Below are positions 2,127-12,496 of a DNA stretch of 42,115 bases, in pieces. Position 1 is the stretch's first letter. Each line of letters opens with the position of its first letter. Source of the DNA: Acetatifactor muris (lineage in GTDB: Bacteria; Bacillota; Clostridia; Lachnospirales; Lachnospiraceae); assembly GCA_023664365.1 (NCBI GenBank), contig JAMPFR010000026.1, positions 1-42,115 on the forward strand, in the 5' to 3' direction. The position numbers and the translations under genes were made by a program. The notes under the pieces are model-generated. The model had not been told where the DNA came from. It saw nothing but the letters and a program-made list of their open reading frames with translations, and did no database searches.

Positions 2127-4310
2127 TCAGTTTCCCTCCGCTTCGTTTATCAGCCCTGTCAGAAATTCATAGGTGGCGCTTCCCGGGTCATAACTCCCAC
2201 GCTCCAACAGCTGTTCTGCCAGAGAATAAATGCTTTTCGCCACCGGCGGGCCATACAGGGTAATGCTCTTTCCGTCTTTTTCGAGGATAATATATCCCCG
2301 AAAAGCATACTCTGTCTTATACTGTGCCGCAGGCATACCCACCAGCACAGAGGTATATCGGTACCTGCCGTCCACAGTCTCATACACCACATCCGTAAAG
2401 CCGCCGTTTCCGTCCGCCCCGTAAGCCATGCCGCTCTGCACCTTCTCACCGCCCTTCACCATGGGATACCGGTCTCTGTTGGCATTGTTCATCACAAGGG
2501 TGCCGTACTCCCGCAGCCGATACCGGTTTACGCCACCGCCCGCAAGCTTGTTTCTCAGTTCTGCTGATATTCCTGTCTTAAACCGGATTCCCGGCTTTCC
2601 GGTGATTCTGATGGAAAAACCGTGGTAGGTCAGCAAATCCGCAAGCTCCGGTTCCGGCGTGGCAATGTAGGCGCCGCTGCCGTAGCTTAAACTCCACACA
2701 TACATCCCCACGGGGACTCCCGACTCATTATATCGATAGACAACCGCCGCTGCCGCGCTTTTGTCTGATGCGGTGACAGTGACCGTTCCTTCTTCCGCCG
2801 TTCCCTGATATGCCACGCCGTCCAGCCACACGGTACTGTCGTTGTAACCCTCCGGCAGCTTCAGGGAAATATCCAGTGTTTCCACCACCGGATCCTCCGG
2901 TTCCGTTCCGGGCGCAGCGCAGGGCGCCCCGGGCATATTCAAATAGACAGGTATCTTGAACACAAACGGGCTGTCCAGAGCATTGGCGTCGGCATACAGC
3001 TTCCTGATACTCTGGGCTTCGGACTTTGGCGCCGAAATATTCTGCATATACTGATGGGTATATACCGCATGGCTGCCCTTTGGATTCACATTGAATTTCT
3101 GCAGATACAGCGTATCCTGTCCCTTTCTGATATAATTGGCAGAGATAAAATCCGCCCCGTCCCGAATCGCAAAATAGGCGTTTATCCAACCATGATCTTT
3201 GGCATACTTCAGGCCGTTCTCGTAGACTTCCTGATTGGTCTTTCCGCTGGCCCCTATATTAAAATAGTTATAATAGCCCTCATAACCGGGATAAGTGCCC
3301 GATATCAGAGGCGACGTACCCTGTCCCTGCTCCTGCAGCACCCTGGCCGCCAGATGAAAGGGACTGACCTTCCTGCATTCCTCTTTTCCGAAAAGCCAGA
3401 ACAGCTCTGCAAAAGTCAGCGCACTCATTCCGGGCGCGGGCTTGCTGTCATTCATGAAGGTATTGTTCAAAAAACTCTGCATGGCCTCCAGAGTGTGATA
3501 TTCCTCGTTATAAGTCAGCTGCTCAAACTGAAAAATTGCGCTTTCCGACAGGTTATTCCGGGGATCCATATACACCTTAACCGCCGCCTCCGTGGCATAA
3601 TACCAGTTCCCGGTATCATAAAGCCCGTTTTTCGCCCAGTCGGGAAGGCTCTTGTGTGCCAGGCTCTTTCCGCCCTGCAATTCATTATAAATGACGTCAT
3701 TCCAGTCCAGAGTGGTATTCATTTTTACAAAAGTCCAATTGGGATGCTGCTGCTTCAACTCCGTCAGTGCAGCCCTGTAGCTGGCCGGGAACTGCTCAAT
3801 ATCGGCATAAACCGTCTGGCCGCCCGCATCAATCCCATAAACGTAAGTCTTCGGGTTCATCCCGTATGTCTCCTCCCAGCTTAGAAACCGGGCGTCAGAA
3901 ACAGCCAGACAGGTTCGGGGAATATAACCGTAATATTCATTCCCCTCATATTCCAGCCACACATATTCCCAAACCTCATAATTATCATCCAGATATACGT
4001 CCAGAATGTTGACCTGCTGGCCGCTGAGTACCGTAACCGCTATCTCTCCCTCATAGGAAGGCGTGGTTCGTACGGGGTATTCGTCGGCCAGATACACCAG
4101 GGCCATAATTTCTCTCTCCGCCGCTATTTCTTCCAATGCAGCTCCTGCCTCGTCTATCAGCAGGGCGGCCTCTGCCTCCATATCGGCGGAATACCGGGCG
4201 CCTGCCGCGCGGACGGCAGCGCCTGTCCCGGGCATCCCTGCCAAAAGCAGCACTAAAGCCAGAAAGCACAATATGTATTTTTGAATTTGCTTTTGTTTTT
4301 GCTTTTTCAT
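2127..4310 (-). CDS. Secreted LytG-type endo-beta-N-acetylglucosaminidase with SH3 and C-terminal surface domain
   Basis: 727 aa from the ATG at 4310 (AGGAG five bases upstream). A signal peptide covers about residues 1-36 (KYILCFLALVLLLAGMPG). An SH3-like region at about 65-140 (VRTTPSYEGEIAVTVLSGQQ and EGNEYYGYIPRTCL) would bind the wall. The glucosaminidase domain lies at about 255-440 and includes SPFHLAARVLQEQG, whose Glu is in the usual catalytic position, followed by GTSPLISGTYPGYEGYYNYF and NIGASG, very close to LytG/GH73 enzymes. The last 250 residues (FSIRITGKPGIRFKTGIS and following) resemble a domain that I recall from other Lachnospiraceae surface proteins, function unknown. Predicted role: cutting peptidoglycan glycan strands outside the cell during growth or separation. 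First gene of a two-gene operon with the lipoprotein. Confidence 0.85.
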   Translation of the reverse strand: MKKQKQKQIQKYILCFLALVLLLAGMPGTGAAVRAAGARYSADMEAEAALLIDEAGAALEEIAAEREIMALVYLADEYPVRTTPSYEGEIAVTVLSGQQVNILDVYLDDNYEVWEYVWLEYEGNEYYGYIPRTCLAVSDARFLSWEETYGMNPKTYVYGIDAGGQTVYADIEQFPASYRAALTELKQQHPNWTFVKMNTTLDWNDVIYNELQGGKSLAHKSLPDWAKNGLYDTGNWYYATEAAVKVYMDPRNNLSESAIFQFEQLTYNEEYHTLEAMQSFLNNTFMNDSKPAPGMSALTFAELFWLFGKEECRKVSPFHLAARVLQEQGQGTSPLISGTYPGYEGYYNYFNIGASGKTNQEVYENGLKYAKDHGWINAYFAIRDGADFISANYIRKGQDTLYLQKFNVNPKGSHAVYTHQYMQNISAPKSEAQSIRKLYADANALDSPFVFKIPVYLNMPGAPCAAPGTEPEDPVVETLDISLKLPEGYNDSTVWLDGVAYQGTAEEGTVTVTASDKSAAAAVVYRYNESGVPVGMYVWSLSYGSGAYIATPEPELADLLTYHGFSIRITGKPGIRFKTGISAELRNKLAGGGVNRYRLREYGTLVMNNANRDRYPMVKGGEKVQSGMAYGADGNGGFTDVVYETVDGRYRYTSVLVGMPAAQYKTEYAFRGYIILEKDGKSITLYGPPVAKSIYSLAEQLLERGSYDPGSATYEFLTGLINEAEGN

Positions 4311-4405: not shown

Positions 4406-4447
4406 TAGAAAATATTTCCACTCAAACATTAAATTTGCAAAAGGAAA

Positions 4448-4465
4448 GAGACTCTTTCGAGTCTC
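4448..4465 (-). terminator. Terminator of the three-gene cassette
   Basis: GAGACTC (4448-4454), TTTC loop, GAGTCTC (4459-4465), then on the minus strand TTTCCTTTTG. It sits eight bases after the stop of the HD protein gene and is identical over 22 bp to the terminator at 958-979. Confidence 0.75.
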
Positions 4466-4473
4466 CGTCCTCC

Positions 4474-6729
4474 TTACATAATTTCATCAATGCAGATATC
4501 CATTATAAAATATAAAAAGTAGTCGGAATAGAAATCAAATACCATTTCACCGGTATCTCTTTTCCTTTTTCTCTTTTCACAGATAGTCAGGTAATCCCTT
4601 TCTTCCGTGTAGCTTTGCACCACCTCACATATATCCCCCCGCAAGGGATAGTGAACCTCATATCGATATGTATCCTCCTCCCAAAACGACTCTTCCGAAG
4701 AAAAATCGCAGTGCATCAGTGCAAAGCAGTCTGCCATCAAGGCTATCATATTTTTGTCCCTGATATTCCATACCTGCGCCGTCATCTTTGCCAGCTGCTC
4801 ACAATATACAGAAAGCTCCTCTTCATATTTCTTTCCTTTCTCCTCTTTCTCCCCCTCCACGGAAAACGCAAGCTTCTTTTTGCAGGCCATACGGCCGAGT
4901 ATCAGTAAATACAGGTAAAAATCCAGAGACTGCAGCAACAGTCGCTTTGTTTCAGTGGTTGTCTGCATTTTCATAGTACCGTCCGGCGTCCGGCAGGTTA
5001 ACTCACTGTAATTTGGAGAAATCTTGCTTATTAATATATCATAAAAGCTTTTCCTGCATTTCTTTTTTTCAATGCGGTTTTTCAAAGTAAGAAACGCTGT
5101 AGACTTTTCTAAAAATTTCCTCTCATCCCATAAATATACCAGCTTTTTTCCCAGATCAACAGGTTCTGCGATAACCGCGCTTATATCCTTCTCCCTGCCT
5201 GATGCTGCTGCAAATTCTTCCAGAATCTTTACCTTAACAGCCACCGGATTATTCGTCAGAAAAGCCCTCACATAAATATCCGGAACCCTCTCCTGCTTCT
5301 TTGCCATCTCCCGCAGCTCCCGGATCCCCCGCAGCCGCTGCAAAGCAAACGTATCATTGTACCGTGCCAGCTGCAGTAACGCCTTTCTGTCACATTTCAG
5401 ATCGAGAATCCATCTTCCTCTTTTCTCTTTCTCTGTCTTCTCTACGCAGGCAATTTCCAGTTCCGTGAAAGGCGCCACATTAATCATGCGCCGGTTCGGA
5501 AACCAGAGGCTGTTCCAGCCCTTGGCGCCGCAGACGCAGGAATAGGCATAGACATGCCCTTCGTTTCTCCGGCGAATCATAGGCGTCTTACATTTATCAC
5601 AGACAAAAAACGCGCTTTTGTCGCTGATCAGGAAATAGACCCTCTCCCATTCCTGAAGATCGTCGCACAGGCGAAACAGATAGGAAATAGGATTTTCCGT
5701 AAATACGCTGTGATAGCGGTCATACTTCTTTTTAGCCTGAAATTCATATTTCAAAGTATGATTATATATTACCAGCGCCGACAGCTCCAGCACCATACGT
5801 TTGACCGGCTCCAGGCTGAAAATCCGGCCGTTGTCATAATACTGCATCAGCAGGATAATTGCCGAATACGCGCCGTGATCGCTGTCCTCCAGCCGTTTCC
5901 TGATTTCCTCTTCCGGAACCGTAGAAAACAGAAGACTGTTGCTCAGCAGGCTTTTAACGTGCGGCATGCAGTTCCCCGCGTCCATAAAAATATGCGACAT
6001 GGGCAGAAAACTCTGCATTCTCGCCATATTGCGGCGCATATATACAACAGGGTATCCTATATCATGCACCAGAGAGGAAACTGCTGCCGTAGCAAAAATA
6101 ATATAATGATAGCAGCATTCCGAAACCCCTTCATCGTCGTACATAATCTCCTTCAGGCAATCCCATTTTCGGATCGTGGTTTTCTCCCTCTGCTCGCGAA
6201 CGCTGCGCTGCATTTCCACAGCTACCCTGCTGTTTTCCCTGCTGTAAATATCCATACAGGTGCGCCAGAGTTCATCCTGATCCAGAAACATAAACATTTC
6301 ATACAAATTACGCACCTGATGCAGATAATGATCCCGGTAATAACTGTAATCATGCTGCTGTTCTTTATACTCCAGATGCATCATCCACTCAAAGTAAAAG
6401 TAGGAACTTTGAAAAAGCTCCTCCAGTCCGTCTATGTTTACATATTCCCTTAAGAATTTTTCTGTCACCAGCTCCAATATGTTTGTGTTTTCAGTGTCGC
6501 GGGCGCTTCCGTAATGATAAACCTTATCTACGGTCAGAAAGGTTTCCACCGCCCGATCCATATCCCAGCGCCCGTCCTCTCCCGGATAGAAATTTTTCAG
6601 CAGCTCCTCCAGTACCGATACGGACACAGTCTCTCCCGGCGCTTTTGTATACAAAAACTTATGCCTAAGTACGTCAAAATCAGCAAGATAATCCTGCATT
6701 GTCATTCCGTTAAAAATCATTTTTCCCAT
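4474..6729 (-). CDS. HD-domain protein with zinc ribbon (third gene of the cassette)
   Basis: 751 aa; ATG at 6729 with AGGAG six bases upstream; overlaps the preceding ATPase gene by 13 bases. Not a protein that I recognise, but motifs are visible. RDHYLHQVRNLY (H137) followed by LVHDIGYP (H222-D223), DSDHGAYSAI (H285), YNHTL (H324) and FRLCDDLQEWER (D356) reproduce the metal-ligand pattern of an HD phosphohydrolase-type domain at about residues 125-365, with every expected His/Asp present. A four-Cys zinc ribbon follows directly: CDKC (377/380) and CVC (398/400). The remaining 350 residues are alpha-helical looking and unassigned. There is no signal or membrane segment, so it is cytoplasmic. 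An active HD domain would cleave a phosphate ester (nucleotide or cyclic nucleotide); the substrate is unknown. Confidence 0.65.
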   Translation of the reverse strand: MGKMIFNGMTMQDYLADFDVLRHKFLYTKAPGETVSVSVLEELLKNFYPGEDGRWDMDRAVETFLTVDKVYHYGSARDTENTNILELVTEKFLREYVNIDGLEELFQSSYFYFEWMMHLEYKEQQHDYSYYRDHYLHQVRNLYEMFMFLDQDELWRTCMDIYSRENSRVAVEMQRSVREQREKTTIRKWDCLKEIMYDDEGVSECCYHYIIFATAAVSSLVHDIGYPVVYMRRNMARMQSFLPMSHIFMDAGNCMPHVKSLLSNSLLFSTVPEEEIRKRLEDSDHGAYSAIILLMQYYDNGRIFSLEPVKRMVLELSALVIYNHTLKYEFQAKKKYDRYHSVFTENPISYLFRLCDDLQEWERVYFLISDKSAFFVCDKCKTPMIRRRNEGHVYAYSCVCGAKGWNSLWFPNRRMINVAPFTELEIACVEKTEKEKRGRWILDLKCDRKALLQLARYNDTFALQRLRGIRELREMAKKQERVPDIYVRAFLTNNPVAVKVKILEEFAAASGREKDISAVIAEPVDLGKKLVYLWDERKFLEKSTAFLTLKNRIEKKKCRKSFYDILISKISPNYSELTCRTPDGTMKMQTTTETKRLLLQSLDFYLYLLILGRMACKKKLAFSVEGEKEEKGKKYEEELSVYCEQLAKMTAQVWNIRDKNMIALMADCFALMHCDFSSEESFWEEDTYRYEVHYPLRGDICEVVQSYTEERDYLTICEKRKRKRDTGEMVFDFYSDYFLYFIMDICIDEIM

Positions 6730-7802
6730 GGATTCTCCTGTTCCTTCAACGTATCGTCCTTTTCGATTTCAAACCGGTTTCTTTCCGTAATTGTACTGTA
6801 CTCATGGTAAGAAATATTATACTTGTTCCGGTACACTTTTCCCGGTGTCGTTTGTTCCATCATTACCTTATACAGCTCCGAAACGTTTTGTCTTACCCGG
6901 TCTTCATATGCGGTCAAATCTTTTGACTCCGAAAAGAAAGGATTATTCAATATGGAGTTCACCGTGTCGAAATCCTTAAGCTTCGTTGTACACCTATTCA
7001 TTTCCCTGATATTCCCCAGTGCAAGGGCCATATGCCCGATATCCTCCGTTGTCACCTGGTAATAATGCATCTTTATCTTCTTGCTGTCTTTAGTTGCCAT
7101 CGCGCGAAGCAGATTGAGAATCATGTCGGAATACTCATCATATCCGGGCGGCATATCGATCACCACGTTTTTATATTGTCCCAGGGGCTTCTCTCCTCTG
7201 TCATTGTCAGGTGCATAAGTCGCATTCCTGTGTAAAATAAAATCAAGCAACCGCTCCAGACGGTAAATATAAATACCGGCAGCCAACTTCCCCGTATAAT
7301 TTTGATGCGGAAACCATATCTTATCCTTTGACTTCGCACCGGCCAGAATAAAATCCAGAGATCCGTTCATCGTGTAGGCCACACCTGACTCAGCCGCCGG
7401 ATCTGCCTCTTTTGCATAGGAAAAGGTATTCTGCACCAGCTTCTCCGGAAGGAAGTCCATATCCTGCACAAAGCAGCTCAGATTGTCTTCCTCCCGGTAT
7501 CCGTCCGGAATAGCAATCGTGTGTTTCAAGCCGCTGCCATGGAGCACGGGCCCGGAGTTTTTCTTCATATCCTCCAACACCTTCGCACATGTCTCGCTGC
7601 TTGCCACGGTGCCATCCCGAAACAGCAGCGGCTGCCATGCGGAACCCCTGAAATCCGCATCCAACAGTAACACCTCTGCCGGCCCCTCCAAATTTTCCTT
7701 CGCAAGCTCCAGGGCTTTAAAAAGGGAGCAGGTGCTTTTACCGCACCCGCCCTTCATGGAATGCATGATATGAAAACAAATCTCTTTATTATTTCCGCTC
7801 AC
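6717..7802 (-). CDS. ParA/MinD-like P-loop ATPase (second gene of the cassette)
   Basis: 361 aa from a GTG at 7802 (GAGG site upstream); 13 bases after the first cassette gene and overlapping the third. The N-terminus carries a deviant Walker A, MKGGCGKST (K17GGCGKST24), with the signature second lysine of the ParA/MinD/Mrp class. VLLLDADFRG (D48/D50) matches the Walker A' position and VVIDMPPGYDEY (D216) the Walker B/switch position. The gap between these two blocks is longer than in a typical chromosome-partition ParA (residues 50-213), indicating an insertion. No ParB gene or parS-like sites are visible nearby, so plasmid or chromosome partition is not supported. Within the cassette it is more likely an ATP-dependent switch that recruits or positions its partners. 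Confidence 0.75.
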   Translation of the reverse strand: MSGNNKEICFHIMHSMKGGCGKSTCSLFKALELAKENLEGPAEVLLLDADFRGSAWQPLLFRDGTVASSETCAKVLEDMKKNSGPVLHGSGLKHTIAIPDGYREEDNLSCFVQDMDFLPEKLVQNTFSYAKEADPAAESGVAYTMNGSLDFILAGAKSKDKIWFPHQNYTGKLAAGIYIYRLERLLDFILHRNATYAPDNDRGEKPLGQYKNVVIDMPPGYDEYSDMILNLLRAMATKDSKKIKMHYYQVTTEDIGHMALALGNIREMNRCTTKLKDFDTVNSILNNPFFSESKDLTAYEDRVRQNVSELYKVMMEQTTPGKVYRNKYNISYHEYSTITERNRFEIEKDDTLKEQENPWEK

Positions 7803-7815
7803 CGCTTTTTCCTCT

Positions 7816-9903
7816 TTACTCGTTGATTAATGTGCTGTTCAGGTAAAGCGAACTTCCCGTATAGTGAAATTTCTCGCAGCACTCCGCAATACAGTGCAGC
7901 GTCTGCTCAAAATTATCCTCATTCACCTCAGGGCATACCATACCTCGAAAGGTATTGATAAAATACCCTCTCATATCCGGAACTCTTCTCATCCGCAGAT
8001 TCTCCAGGCGCTCAACGGTCACAAATACTGTTCTGTGCAGCTTGTGTCTTCCGAAAAGATCATCCTGCCGCAGGGGCGTCACACCCGGCAGCTTCTTCCC
8101 CTTGCAGATCTCCATCCAAGGCTGAGACCATAAATGAGCAAACACCAGATCGCTTACGCTGTCTGCATTTACAATAACAGAATGAATCAGCAGTTCCCGA
8201 AAATACCTTTTTACACAATACATACCGCCGGCCTTCAGGGCAAAATCCAATACCGCCTCCGCCAATTCTTCCGCCCTGTTTCGGAAAATTTCTTTCTGCT
8301 TTTCATCCCAACCCTCTTCGAACAGAACAATGCCATAATGAATATCTATGCGTTTCACCTCGGCGTTTATTTCATATTGCAGCATCAGAGCCGACTGATT
8401 CAGTCTTTTGATCAGACAGTCCTCCGAAACATCCGTCGCCTTGCTTACCTCTGCCAGAAAGGCCCTGCAGTAATCATTTCCTATACTTTTCAGTATCTTC
8501 CAGAGATTCAGGGACACATAACGCTGCCTCTTCTCCTGTATCTCTTCCCGGCTGTATGCCAAAAACTTTCCATATTTCTCATTAAAGGCCTTTTCATCTG
8601 TTTTTGCCAGCTTATATACTAACAGTCTTCTTCCTGCATAATATTCATCGTTGCAGACACTGCTGTACTTCAGATCCCGGGAGGCAATGCTGCTGCCCTC
8701 CCTGATATAGAGATAAATATCCGCTCTTTCTTCAGATACCGCCAACAGGTTCTGAAACAGCTCCGCGTCAAATTCAAAAGAGGATGAGTCACTCTGCCGC
8801 AAAGAATTCAGCCACAGCCCCGTATAATGATAAATGTCCCGATAATATGCCGCCTTCTCCTTAAAGTCTTCCCTGGCCGTACTCCTGTCCAGACACCACC
8901 TGCAGTAAGTCCTTACATTCCTCTCCTCAACCGTTTTGGGACTCTGCCACTGCCTGTACAGACAGTTAATATCCAAGAAGAGAATAATATCATACTTTCC
9001 CGCCAGTTCTCTGGCGTCATCCAGGTTTGATAAATCAAACAGCTGTTCACCGGCCTCATCCTGAAAATAATACTCTCCCATATAGGGGATATTCTTAAAT
9101 TCAGTCCACCTTATTTTTATTTCCGGATTCAACAATCTTTCTACTGATTCCGATTCACCGGACAGGCTGCCGAATACCGCTATCCGGATTTCCCTCTGCT
9201 CGGAAGGGCTTCCCTGCGCCGGATGGCTCGCCTGAAAGCTGTGAATCTTCTCCCAGATCCGCAGATAGGGTATATCCGTATTCCCTTCTCTCTGCCTGAA
9301 GGCATATGCCTCGGCCGGGCCGTACGGATCCTCTGCAAGAGCCTCGTACACCTGATTACGGCAAAAAAGCTTTATCTGCTGCCGATTCCGATTCTGAGCG
9401 GCAAACACAGCCTCCAGAACCGCGTGCCTGACTCCCTCCGTCTTGGAGAGCATATGCTCAAGTTCATGCTCCACCAACGCATTCATCACGCGAACCGGAT
9501 GCCACGGCGAAATAGAATAACGGTTGGTATTTTTATTCCTCTCACACCCCAGCAGATACAGTTCTTCTACCCCCCGGCTGTAATCCGACGTCTCCCCCCG
9601 GGAGGCGTTCCGCTCTTCCCCCGCAGCATCCAGCAGCTCTACCAGCGTGGAAAAGTAATCTGCCACTACCTGCTCTCTCTCATTCCAGTCCATTTCCGAT
9701 AAGCCGAAAAAGCTTTTATACGTTTTTATAACAGAGTCTTTAAATTCCTCCGGCATTTTGTCCGCCTGCTCCAGCAGCCTGCGCTGCGTCTCTGCCGGAC
9801 ATGCAAAAAAGACATCCCTGGCGGCCCTATCCGCCCCGGCTGATGTCTGATTTCCTGCTTCACATTGTATAACGGTTGTATTTTTTTCCTTCTGATCCCC
9901 CAT
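7816..9903 (-). CDS. Large protein of unknown function (first gene of the cassette)
   Basis: 695 aa from the ATG at 9903, preceded by TAGGTG; a GTG three codons upstream is possible but has a poorer site. I do not recognise this protein. It has no signal peptide or membrane helix and is rich in charged residues and helices. About residues 120-150 contain the segment RYSISPWHPVRVMNALVEHE. In the middle, REIRIAVFGSLSGESESVER (about 245-265) and KYDIILFLDINCLY (about 310-325) look like beta-strands of an alpha/beta (Rossmann-like) fold, but no nucleotide-binding loop is obvious. The C-terminal third is helical. It leads a tightly spaced operon (13-base gap, then 13-base overlap) with an ATPase and an HD protein, suggesting a sensor, scaffold or effector in the same complex. 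Confidence 0.6.
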   Translation of the reverse strand: MGDQKEKNTTVIQCEAGNQTSAGADRAARDVFFACPAETQRRLLEQADKMPEEFKDSVIKTYKSFFGLSEMDWNEREQVVADYFSTLVELLDAAGEERNASRGETSDYSRGVEELYLLGCERNKNTNRYSISPWHPVRVMNALVEHELEHMLSKTEGVRHAVLEAVFAAQNRNRQQIKLFCRNQVYEALAEDPYGPAEAYAFRQREGNTDIPYLRIWEKIHSFQASHPAQGSPSEQREIRIAVFGSLSGESESVERLLNPEIKIRWTEFKNIPYMGEYYFQDEAGEQLFDLSNLDDARELAGKYDIILFLDINCLYRQWQSPKTVEERNVRTYCRWCLDRSTAREDFKEKAAYYRDIYHYTGLWLNSLRQSDSSSFEFDAELFQNLLAVSEERADIYLYIREGSSIASRDLKYSSVCNDEYYAGRRLLVYKLAKTDEKAFNEKYGKFLAYSREEIQEKRQRYVSLNLWKILKSIGNDYCRAFLAEVSKATDVSEDCLIKRLNQSALMLQYEINAEVKRIDIHYGIVLFEEGWDEKQKEIFRNRAEELAEAVLDFALKAGGMYCVKRYFRELLIHSVIVNADSVSDLVFAHLWSQPWMEICKGKKLPGVTPLRQDDLFGRHKLHRTVFVTVERLENLRMRRVPDMRGYFINTFRGMVCPEVNEDNFEQTLHCIAECCEKFHYTGSSLYLNSTLINE

Positions 9904-9988
9904 ACAATTCACCTATCCGTCTTTAGTCTATCCTATTCATTGGGACATGTCAAGATGTCAGTACTTAAAATCTCCTTATCGTCAAAAA

Positions 9989-10067
9989 ATTATACCATGA
10001 AGACAGCACACATTTTTACATGTCCTATAATTTCTTTTAGTATGTCATATGATTCATTTATTGTCAA
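9989..10067 (-). promoter_or_regulatory. Promoter region of the three-gene cassette
   Basis: Two candidates on the minus strand. One is an extended -10, TGGTATAAT (-10 at 9994-9989), with no good -35. The other is a perfect TTGACA (10067-10062), 17 bases from CATACT (10044-10039, 4 of 6). The 179-base gap between the polysaccharide operon and the cassette is clearly more AT-rich than its surroundings and holds no other gene. An AAGGAG near 9970 is not followed by a usable reading frame. Confidence 0.5.
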
Positions 10068-10082
10068 TTGCAAAAATATATT

Positions 10083-11099
10083 TCACAGCTGCCTCAGCCG
10101 CCTGTGCAGCTTCCTTATGCCCTTGGGCGCCAGGGCAAAGAGCGTATGATACACCTTGTTTTTCCCTGTCAGCAGCGGGTTCCCCATAGCCTTCAGCCAG
10201 TTTCGCCTGAGATACCTTACAATATCCCGGTACATCCCGTTTTCCCGGTTCATCTGCGCAATGGGGATGTGCAGCATATATTCCAGCCGCTGGAAAACGC
10301 CGAACCGGAAGGCCGTCGTCTGCAGCGCAGGGTACTCCCGGCTCACGATTTCCGCCGCCAGGTCGGCGTTATCCACACAATCGGCATACACTCTGGAGAA
10401 ATCGTCCCTGCTCTCCTTTCTGGAATTGCTGCCCAGCCGGTAAAACACATGATAGGCATGACCGGGAAGGGACACAATGGGGCCCAGTCTGTGCAGCATC
10501 TGTATCAGCAGGCGGAAATCCTCGTTCAGCATGCCAAGGGGAAACCGACTTTCTCCCCCGCCTTCCCGGCCCGCTGCAGGCTCCGGTTCCTCCGGGAAAA
10601 ACATTTCCCGGCGTATCAGCTTTGTACAAAAGGAGCAGTCCCCCCTGTGCATCAGCAGCTCCCTCATAAATTCCTCCGGCGGAATGCACAGGCTCTTCTC
10701 CGGCGGAATGCAGATATCCGGCAGCATATTGCCTTCCCCGTCCCTTTCGTCCCTGCCGATCTGTGCGGCGTTGACATGGTACCGGCAGACTGCCGCATAC
10801 AGCCGTTCATACATATCCGGCTCCACATAGTCATCGCTGTCCGCAAAGCCGATGTAATCCCCCTTTGCTTTGTCAATTCCCAGGTTCCTGGCAGAGGAGG
10901 AGCCTCCGTTTTCCTTATGAAATACGCGGACACGCCCGTCCCGCTCCGCAAATCGGTCGCAGATTTCACCGCTGCCGTCCGTGGAGCCGTCATCCACCAG
11001 GATAATCTCCATATCCTGCCATGTCTGCGCCAGCAGCGAATTTACGCAGCGCTCCAGATATTCCTTTGTGTTATAAACCGGCACGATAACGCTAATCAC
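10083..11099 (-). CDS. Family 2 glycosyltransferase, last gene of the polysaccharide operon
   Basis: 338 aa from a GTG at 11099 that overlaps the upstream stop codon (GTGA); an AGAGGGAGAA site precedes it. The frame stays open much further upstream (to 11393), but that part overlaps the previous gene and is not protein-like. VISVIVPVYNTKEYLERCVN starts the GT-A fold; ILVDDGSTDGS and IGFADSDDYV give the nucleotide-sugar and DXD metal-binding positions. It has no membrane helix. It should add one sugar to a lipid-linked repeat unit at the inner face of the membrane. Donor and acceptor cannot be read from sequence. No hairpin terminator follows it before the AT-rich gap. Confidence 0.88.
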   Translation of the reverse strand: MISVIVPVYNTKEYLERCVNSLLAQTWQDMEIILVDDGSTDGSGEICDRFAERDGRVRVFHKENGGSSSARNLGIDKAKGDYIGFADSDDYVEPDMYERLYAAVCRYHVNAAQIGRDERDGEGNMLPDICIPPEKSLCIPPEEFMRELLMHRGDCSFCTKLIRREMFFPEEPEPAAGREGGGESRFPLGMLNEDFRLLIQMLHRLGPIVSLPGHAYHVFYRLGSNSRKESRDDFSRVYADCVDNADLAAEIVSREYPALQTTAFRFGVFQRLEYMLHIPIAQMNRENGMYRDIVRYLRRNWLKAMGNPLLTGKNKVYHTLFALAPKGIRKLHRRLRQL

Positions 11100-12496
11100 T
11101 GTCTCTTCTCCCTCTTCAACAATGCGTACATCTTCCGCTCCGGAATCACAGCCGCCGGGGCGCAGGGTGCAGGGGCGAATCCGGCCTTTTCGCAGGCCGC
11201 CGAACCGTGGAAATCTCCGGTGGGACAGTCTGAGGGCTTCCGGTCGGAAGCCTTCTGCCTGCTCTCCTTCATTCTGCCGCCCCCCCGAATAAGCCCCAGG
11301 CTCCCGCAAAGCTCCCACAGGGACTTTGCGGCATTTTCCGCATTCCAGATCTCCGTGATGGTCCTGTATGCGTTTCTTCCCAGCCGGGCGCAAAGCTCCC
11401 TGTCCCGCACAAGTCTCTCTGCCAGCGCAAACAACTCCTTCCTGTTTCCGTCCCGATAGATAAAGCCGTTTTCTCCATCATGCACCAGGAAAGGCGCCGC
11501 TCCCGCCATGTGGCCTGCAATCAACCCGCAGCCGCTGTTCATGGCCTCATTTATAACTGCTCCCCAGCCCTCCTGCCGATCGCTGGTAAACAGGAAGATA
11601 TCCGCTCTTTCCATATATTCCCGGACCTGCTCCGGAGCCAGAAAGCCCGGAAATCCCACTTCCTTCTCCAGGCCATATTCCGCCCGCAGGACTTTCATCC
11701 GTTCCTCCATGGCACCGCCCCCAATCATATCCATATGAAAGGAAAGGCCTTCGGATTTCAGGTGCCTTGCAGTTTCCAGCGCCAGCTCCGGATGCTTCAG
11801 TTCAATCATACGGGCGGCCCAGAGAATATAGGGCACCTTGCCCGCCCCGGAGGCCGTATCCGCCGTGTCAGAAGCCCCGCCGACCGCCCCCGCCGTGTCA
11901 GAGGCCCCGCTGTCCGCTCCCGCTGCATCAGGCTCCCTCCAACCCTTCCCGGCCAGCAGCCTGTCCACGTCATAGTGTTTCGTCTCCGTGAAATATCCCC
12001 AGCAGTACATTTTCCCGGGGTACGCCCGCACAATGGAGAAATCCGAAGGCACATAGGCCCCCGCACAGAGAAGATACACCGGCGATTTCCGGTATCTGGT
12101 ATGGTCATGATACTTCTTTTTCAGCCCTCTGGGCGAAACCGCCTTCCACTGTCCCGTCCTGTACAGGCGCTCGCTGCATCGGATTACAGCCTTCCCCTGC
12201 GCCAGCCGCCCCTGAATATAGCTTTCATCCTCACAGCCGCCAAACATCACAAGCTCCGCATCGGAAATCAGCCTTTTACACGCTTCCTCTTCCTGATAGT
12301 ATAATCTCAAATAGGGCTGCTGTACCTGCTCTGCCCAGCCCATCCGGACTCTCTCCTCCTCTACAGGCTCCGTCTGCACAAAAGCAAAGCTTCCCCCGCA
12401 GATCTCATACATGGCGTTACAGAAGGGAATCTGATGGTGGTTCAGATAATTGGATACAAATACAAAAACAGGCTTTTCGATAACATGCGTATTCAA
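11096..12496 (-). CDS. Family 4 (GT-B) glycosyltransferase with a repetitive linker
   Basis: 466 aa from a TTG at 12496 (GGAGGG upstream, inside the end of the previous gene, three-base spacing). The C-terminal Rossmann half contains ILWAARMIELKHPELAL, MIGGGAMEERM and FLFTSDRQEGWGAVINEAMN, the last being the EX7E-type donor-binding region of GT4 enzymes. Between the two halves (about residues 193-222) lies an Ala/Gly/Ser/Asp linker with repeated GASDTA units encoded by a GC-rich tandem repeat at about 11845-11935. Residues about 420-466 form an unusual basic tail beyond the normal fold. Role: transfer of a sugar from a nucleotide donor during repeat-unit assembly. Confidence 0.85.
   Translation of the reverse strand: MNTHVIEKPVFVFVSNYLNHHQIPFCNAMYEICGGSFAFVQTEPVEEERVRMGWAEQVQQPYLRLYYQEEEACKRLISDAELVMFGGCEDESYIQGRLAQGKAVIRCSERLYRTGQWKAVSPRGLKKKYHDHTRYRKSPVYLLCAGAYVPSDFSIVRAYPGKMYCWGYFTETKHYDVDRLLAGKGWREPDAAGADSGASDTAGAVGGASDTADTASGAGKVPYILWAARMIELKHPELALETARHLKSEGLSFHMDMIGGGAMEERMKVLRAEYGLEKEVGFPGFLAPEQVREYMERADIFLFTSDRQEGWGAVINEAMNSGCGLIAGHMAGAAPFLVHDGENGFIYRDGNRKELFALAERLVRDRELCARLGRNAYRTITEIWNAENAAKSLWELCGSLGLIRGGGRMKESRQKASDRKPSDCPTGDFHGSAACEKAGFAPAPCAPAAVIPERKMYALLKREKRQ

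Follow-up and report, generated by a model that had tools for sequence, protein, structure and literature searches.

The closest described relatives of the locus studied here are the DndFGH/DptFGH and SspFGH modules. According to PMC8092258, phage resistance depends on all three of SspF, SspG, and SspH; a Walker A motif is present in SspF, and one end of SspH is FtsK-like. DndFGH decoupled from phosphorothioate modification is described in PMC10853773. In modules of this type, the effector step is inseparably joined to a DNA pump. Our subject is a three-gene operon on the minus strand at positions 4474 to 9903 of a 42,115-nucleotide stretch of Acetatifactor muris DNA (contig JAMPFR010000026.1; the whole stretch is termed the window herein). 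We regard this cassette as probably a laterally exchanged counter-invader module, directed against phages or other mobile elements. Comparison of its genes would tie it to DndFGH/SspFGH-type modules through a five-gene sister form, and its putative ParA-HD execution stage appears to be undescribed. Its three genes are as follows.

7816-9903, minus strand: gene A, 695 amino acids, ATG start, with an in-frame GTG at 9912; matches the C-terminal part of gene B of the five-gene form; predicted scaffold/sensor.
6717-7802, minus strand: gene P, 361 amino acids, GTG start; ParA/MinD/Mrp-type ATPase.
4474-6729, minus strand: gene HD, 751 amino acids, ATG start; predicted HD-superfamily phosphohydrolase with a zinc ribbon; predicted effector.

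The initial annotation described three genes with a 13-base gap and a 13-base overlap, and the coordinates of the minus-strand open reading frames (ORFs) agree, placing the gap between A and P at 7803-7815 and the overlap of P and HD at 6717-6729.

A five-gene sister form and recurrence of the set

The window's own genome also holds a paralogous five-gene form, F-G-B-P-HD, at L005:121-8735 (genome G000, contig C84), adjoining two large genes that match DNA methyltransferase models; a methyltransferase beside this copy has a part resembling type IV restriction endonucleases (mREase_IV, 1.2e-8). The F profile aligned with a profile of five DptF sequences over 400 columns (96.9%, E value of 2e-10; reversed control, 0.1%), and F matched the PADLOC model of SspF at 4e-13. 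G matched the SspG model in four of nine members, with a best value of 3.5e-11. The five-gene form thus resembles DndFGH/DptFGH in its DptF-like ATPase, SspG-like protein, and further subunit, arranged in the same order, and resembles SspFGH in the order F-G-x with an SspF-like F and an SspG-like G. It differs from DndFGH/DptFGH in that an HD protein and a ParA-type ATPase take the place of the DptH restriction endonuclease and its HerA/FtsK domains, and from SspFGH in that the FtsK-like end reported for SspH in PMC8092258 finds no counterpart in the PADLOC scan, the sole comparison of B with SspH, in which 0 of 19 A/B members matched at an E value of ≤0.1. By position, B-P-HD stands where DndH or SspH would be. 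B was also considered as a DptH homologue and rejected, as profile comparison gave no support. Inspection of the listed flanks by eye showed no phosphorothioate modification genes and no sspBCD genes. MADS and BrxF gave weak PADLOC matches only (mad7 at 0.0013 in one of nine G members; F to mad8 at 0.0096 and to BrxF at 6.6e-4), and the other components were not found. The window cassette itself differs from the DndFGH/DptFGH and SspFGH modules in having no DptF/SspF-type ATPase, DptG/SspG-type triple winged-helix subunit, or DptH/SspH-type endonuclease-HerA/FtsK protein; none of the window's 164 ORFs matched the F or G profile. Clover, a small defense operon comprising the deoxynucleoside triphosphatase CloA and CloB, is comparable in having an HD-superfamily effector (PMC12265719).

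A pattern-based scan with the HD alignment, run over 84,980 species represented by a single genome apiece, confirmed 25 loci. Removing two remnants (L037 and L039), merging L036 with L038, and adding the window, L005, and the copy in genome G577 (L088) again gave 25 distinct loci, with the remnants L037, L039, and L107 and partial, distant HD matches left out; L036 and L038, separate contigs from a single genome, are taken as one system, the B gene of L038 being split over two ORFs. Related species contribute several of these loci, so the number is not one of independent events. P lies directly upstream of HD at all 25 loci with a strong HD relative; the search used HD alone to locate them and so could not itself have produced the unfailing presence of P. 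The gene upstream of P is A at eight loci (the window and L015 to L021) and B at 15 (L005, L024 to L035, L038, and L088), and F and G precede B at all 15 of the latter. L023 has a weak A candidate at this position, and none was recognized at L022. The 813-amino-acid protein of L021 was counted as A-like on an hhalign value of 96.9% against a single sequence, hmmsearch not reporting it at 1e-3; the 839-amino-acid protein upstream at L023 was not counted, its match being weak (25.8%). At L022, titled Rikenellaceae, the P-HD pair is followed by a CYTH-domain gene (4.8e-18; L022:8748-13670) and then by further genes, those scanned having no Pfam match. Most other loci are titled Lachnospiraceae or other Clostridia; L025 is titled Calditrichales, yet its genome, G204, was grouped with that of the window at class level.

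For 20 of the 25 loci, the distances between loci were compared among A/B, P, and HD and proved to be correlated (r of 0.945 to 0.975), as they were within the eight three-gene loci (0.81 to 0.98) and the twelve five-gene loci (0.965 to 0.98), with at most 2 of 2,000 permutations reaching the observed value. Such agreement is as would be expected for joint inheritance, and common species history would give some correlation too. The absence of the three genes as a set from other genomes, which the initial annotation had named as grounds for refutation, is therefore not what was found: the set stays together elsewhere.

Features of the three proteins

Gene A gave no Pfam, PADLOC, or PDB-sequence match at an E value of ≤1, and an NCBIfam match at 0.088 was dismissed as being at chance level, as were short matches, such as those to troponin or AzuC, from the A and HD family look-ups. 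The A profile (77-587) aligned with the B profile (383-889) over 459 columns (93.5%, E value of 2.3e-7; column-reversed control, 0.1%), by which A and B are homologous. The following domain of A may be distantly like class I S-adenosylmethionine (SAM) methyltransferases.

8599-9300, minus strand: putative Rossmann-like domain in the middle of A, at approximately residues 202 to 435.

Neither a glycine-rich SAM-binding motif nor a catalytic motif was seen by eye in 19 aligned A/B proteins, and a parallel between this methylase-like domain and the dead methylase domain of DndH is suggestive only.

On its motifs, P belongs to the ParA/MinD/Mrp (SIMIBI) ATPases, with a deviant Walker A motif containing the signature lysine, a DxD motif, and a DxPG motif.

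7734-7754, minus strand: deviant Walker A motif of P, KGGCGKS, residues 17 to 23, including the signature lysine.

Residues K17, G18, G19, G21, K22, D48, D50, D216, and D254 do not vary among the 20 members aligned, the window included; KGGxGK and DxD are likewise kept in all 20, and P219 and G220 in 19 each. Pfam ParA matches P at 1.3e-5, below the family's curated cutoff, and in a comparison with PDB chains the P profile matched Mrp-type, PF-32, and Soj chains (7.5e-8). The only PADLOC match of P was to PDC-M28B (5.5e-4, residues 12 to 69). The P profiles of the three-gene and five-gene forms matched each other at 99.8% by profile comparison.

Gene HD is assigned to the HD superfamily because of its conserved motif. 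All 22 aligned members, the window included, share H137, H222-D223, H285, H324, D356-D357, and four cysteines; the histidines and aspartates fit the H..HD..D metal-ligand pattern of the superfamily, and the actual metal binders would be among them.

6061-6066, minus strand: HD dyad H222-D223.
5530-5601, minus strand: zinc ribbon C377-x2-C380 ... C398-x-C400, identical in 22 of 22 members.

The predicted structure had a predicted local distance difference test score (pLDDT) of 76.1 and a predicted template modeling score (pTM) of 0.81. Gene HD gave no PADLOC match at an E value of ≤1 and nothing usable from Pfam, NCBIfam, or PDB sequences, a resemblance to cyclic-nucleotide phosphodiesterases (PDEs) came from structural comparison only, with no PDE sequence match among PDB chains, and Foldseek found no match for the A and HD models at ≤1e-3, absence from fold lists not excluding a fold. 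The protein has 716 to 960 amino acids in the three-gene form versus 522 to 581 in the aligned five-gene proteins, the extra length being a C-terminal part. The ParA-like ATPase and the HD plus zinc-ribbon protein proposed at the outset are both supported by their motifs; of the searches suggested for all three proteins, those with P led to a known family by sequence, and A and HD remained without a usable sequence match.

Distant relatives of the HD protein (L012 to L014, L090, and L091) matched its profile with E values of 1e-13 to 3e-15. Two of these are 578-amino-acid proteins with a TIR-like gene directly after them (L013:6663-9341 and L090:7019-10647). At L013, a RyR domain (5.2e-15) forms the end of the HD protein, and Pfam finds TIR (6e-18, in the neighbor) and LRR; TIR at L090 was recognized by eye. 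These distant relatives differ from the cassette in that, in the stretches read, none of the profiles for A, B, P, F, and G matched beside them.

Probable insertion site, distribution, and remnants

The cassette is bordered by the following features.

10083-11393, minus strand: upstream neighbor, outside the cassette; family-2 glycosyltransferase (Pfam PF00535, 9e-42).
9904-10082, minus strand: AT-rich region upstream of A; it contains a pair of promoter-like sites whose -35 elements are at 10067 and 9953; consensus matches only.
4447-4466, minus strand: terminator-like hairpin 3' of gene HD; consensus match only.
2127-4310, minus strand: downstream neighbor, outside the cassette; 727 amino acids.

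In eight relatives of the same genus (G019, G014, G006, G009, G010, G003, G011, and G018), the orthologue of the upstream glycosyltransferase gene directly precedes that of the downstream gene and no cassette is present (the G014 stretch includes the glycosyltransferase orthologue in part only); in the window, the cassette separates the two. The comparison covered 13 same-genus relatives with the downstream gene; the other five have a different glycosyltransferase (G016) or none in the fetched stretch (G022, G021, G023, and G004). The downstream gene was matched in 16 of 41 genomes, the window's own included, G001 and G043 falling outside the 13. On grounds of parsimony and rarity, insertion in the window's genome is favored over loss in eight relatives.

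Strong HD matches were rare at every level. They were confined to the window's own genome and G020 among 61 relatives (three matches at ≤1e-3), to its own and G204 in the class sample (5 of 291 matched), to its own and G737 in the phylum sample (7 of 348), and to its own and G577 in the family (13 of 348, the rest being partial, with E values of 5.6e-9 or weaker). The HD gene of G577 is an unbroken ORF of 535 amino acids, although the matched span was first reported with internal stops. A/B was found in 3 of the 348 family genomes (the window's own, G577, and a fragment in G514), so that full-length A/B and strong HD fall in the same two genomes. Remnants were also observed. In L039 (G014), 78 bases of HD remain next to a deacetylase gene, the one found ahead of the intact system at L035. 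L037 has HD pieces beside a flank 97.6% identical to that of the intact L027, and L107:5514-9309 (G514) retains F and G of normal length and a B truncated to 249 amino acids, neither P nor HD being present in the fetched 15 kb. A rare occurrence combined with gain and loss is in keeping with defense or mobile cargo.

The G+C content is 29.6% in the upstream stretch (9904-10082), 46.6% in the cassette, and 51% in the window. The promoter and terminator proposed for the cassette are present as sites; they are weak evidence of its own transcription signals because such sites are common in the region (19 promoter-like sites versus 9.4 expected, and 12 terminator-like sites versus 4.7 expected). 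Pfam identifies the upstream genes as glycosyltransferases of family 2 and group 1; the wall hydrolase label of the initial annotation for the downstream gene was not confirmed, that protein having no Pfam match at ≤1e-3.

Proposed function and alternatives

A defense role is favored by the five-gene paralogue with its DptF/SspF-like and SspG-like proteins, by presence and absence at a conserved site, by the remnants, and by defense-type neighbors. Ten proteins picked by eye from six loci elsewhere were compared with PADLOC at ≤1e-5, and eight of them, at five of the six loci, matched defense models (L022 had none). They include SIR2/ThsA-like, type III methyltransferase, and endonuclease effector models at L019, an AbiL pair at L023, SIR2 at L033, an AbiEii-like protein at L026, and a DNA methyltransferase at L005.

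Several results weigh against this interpretation. The neighbors lend weak support, having been picked by eye without a background rate; ten neighbors of the window cassette had no PADLOC match at ≤1e-5, and many five-gene loci are flanked by ordinary genes, as judged by eye. No PADLOC-DB model matches A or HD. G aligned with a profile of five DptG sequences only over a 26-column end (10.6%), and B reached 1.8%, no match, against the five-sequence DptH profile, the highest value among A, B, and the five-gene P and HD profiles. The window and nine other loci (L015 to L023, stretches read), the three-gene loci among them, had no F or G profile match, and therefore the link to restriction systems runs through the five-gene form. 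HD had no match in phages or plasmids and F none in plasmids, negatives that cover close relatives only because tblastn with F also missed plasmid-borne DptF genes; viral contigs gave generic ParA proteins only, and at 16 viral ParA loci nothing but generic ParA genes matched, the profiles for A, B, F, G, and HD finding nothing there.

One alternative is a nucleotide-signaling or stress module with no anti-invader role, in which HD would hydrolyze a cyclic or regulatory nucleotide, P would be a nucleotide-dependent partner, and A a sensor. No recurrent nucleotide cyclase was seen by eye in the operons, F and G resemble restriction subunits, and the rare, patchy presence with remnants is ill-suited to a core pathway; we give this explanation a low probability. 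Maintenance or partition of a mobile element, with P as a true ParA and A and HD as cargo or as partners placing or stabilizing DNA, draws on the resemblance of P to ParA and Mrp proteins and on the conjugation-like genes near L017 and site-specific recombinases near L034 (by eye). Against it stand the lack of an HD match on plasmids and phages noted above, which covers close relatives only, and the HD domain, which has its metal-type residues conserved in 22 of 22 and is not known to take part in partition; no ParB-like gene was recognized by eye in the listed flanks, a negative obtained with no profile search for ParB and no search for parS. We consider it improbable. The close linkage, apparent horizontal spread, and probable degradative enzyme would also fit a toxin-antitoxin-like or abortive unit, a toxic HD restrained by A and P and selected by addiction rather than defense, which we hold to be very unlikely, as the layout is large and multigenic, the set can evidently be lost (L107), and the mechanism overlaps with that of a counter-invader module.

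For the counter-invader module, we suggest the following course of events, drawn from knowledge of the families. In the five-gene form, F and G would recognize the invader, and B-P-HD would replace the DptH/SspH nuclease-translocase; A-P-HD of the window would be the form without F and G. A/B would hold the complex, A acting as scaffold and sensor. P would switch state on ATP binding and hydrolysis, its ATP state binding DNA and A/B and probably loading the complex on DNA. ATP hydrolysis or loss of a partner would then release or activate HD, a predicted multimetal phosphodiesterase/phosphohydrolase that, on release, may cut nucleotides or nucleic acid. In the three-gene form, the longer C-terminal part of HD is one candidate trigger. 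A bolder and rather doubtful proposal is that these loci represent counter-invader systems of a new class. Here a genome-segregation ATPase of the ParA kind, captured in place of a HerA/FtsK pump, would keep an HD phosphodiesterase effector attached to the invader's DNA; A/B would be a scaffold resembling an inactive methyltransferase, in parallel with the inactive methylase domain of DndH, and the system would work with or, as in the window, without DptF/SspG-type sensors. A natural variant retaining the sensing pair but having a scaffold, a ParA switch, and an HD enzyme in place of the pump-nuclease, together with a stripped form lacking that pair, would allow sensing to be studied separately from execution. 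If true, ParA ATPases would also join the bacterial machinery turned against invading DNA.

The scaffold, switch, and effector first envisaged, perhaps with an anti-phage role, gain support from co-occurrence, the five-gene link, site presence and absence, and remnants, and lack it from defense models for A and HD and from the window's neighbors; similarly, a neighborhood survey proposed at the time found the set kept together, with some copies near defense-type genes, and no such gene by PADLOC beside the window cassette. The set was not recognizable to the initial annotation as a named system, nor is it in PADLOC-DB or the literature searched, where no system combining ParA, HD, and SspF/DptF-type proteins was found (preprint servers and most subscription journals were outside the scope). 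No ParA protein appears among the matches listed (12 of 19) for PMC12839542 or among the text matches in PMC10853773, and "HD domain" has no occurrence in either, as far as the available text of PMC12839542 extends.

Further genes were observed beside copies of the system. At L019:720-4882, a 970-amino-acid protein with no Pfam or PADLOC match precedes the SIR2/ThsA-like gene and is possibly an undescribed partner. At L033:1-2142, the gene for a protein of at least 713 amino acids, in which an HD_3 domain was recognized (1.2e-18), is located upstream of F, so that another type of HD protein accompanies the system there. A metallo-beta-lactamase-fold gene (1.7e-8) is located about 0.8 kb before A at L020:4599-5762.
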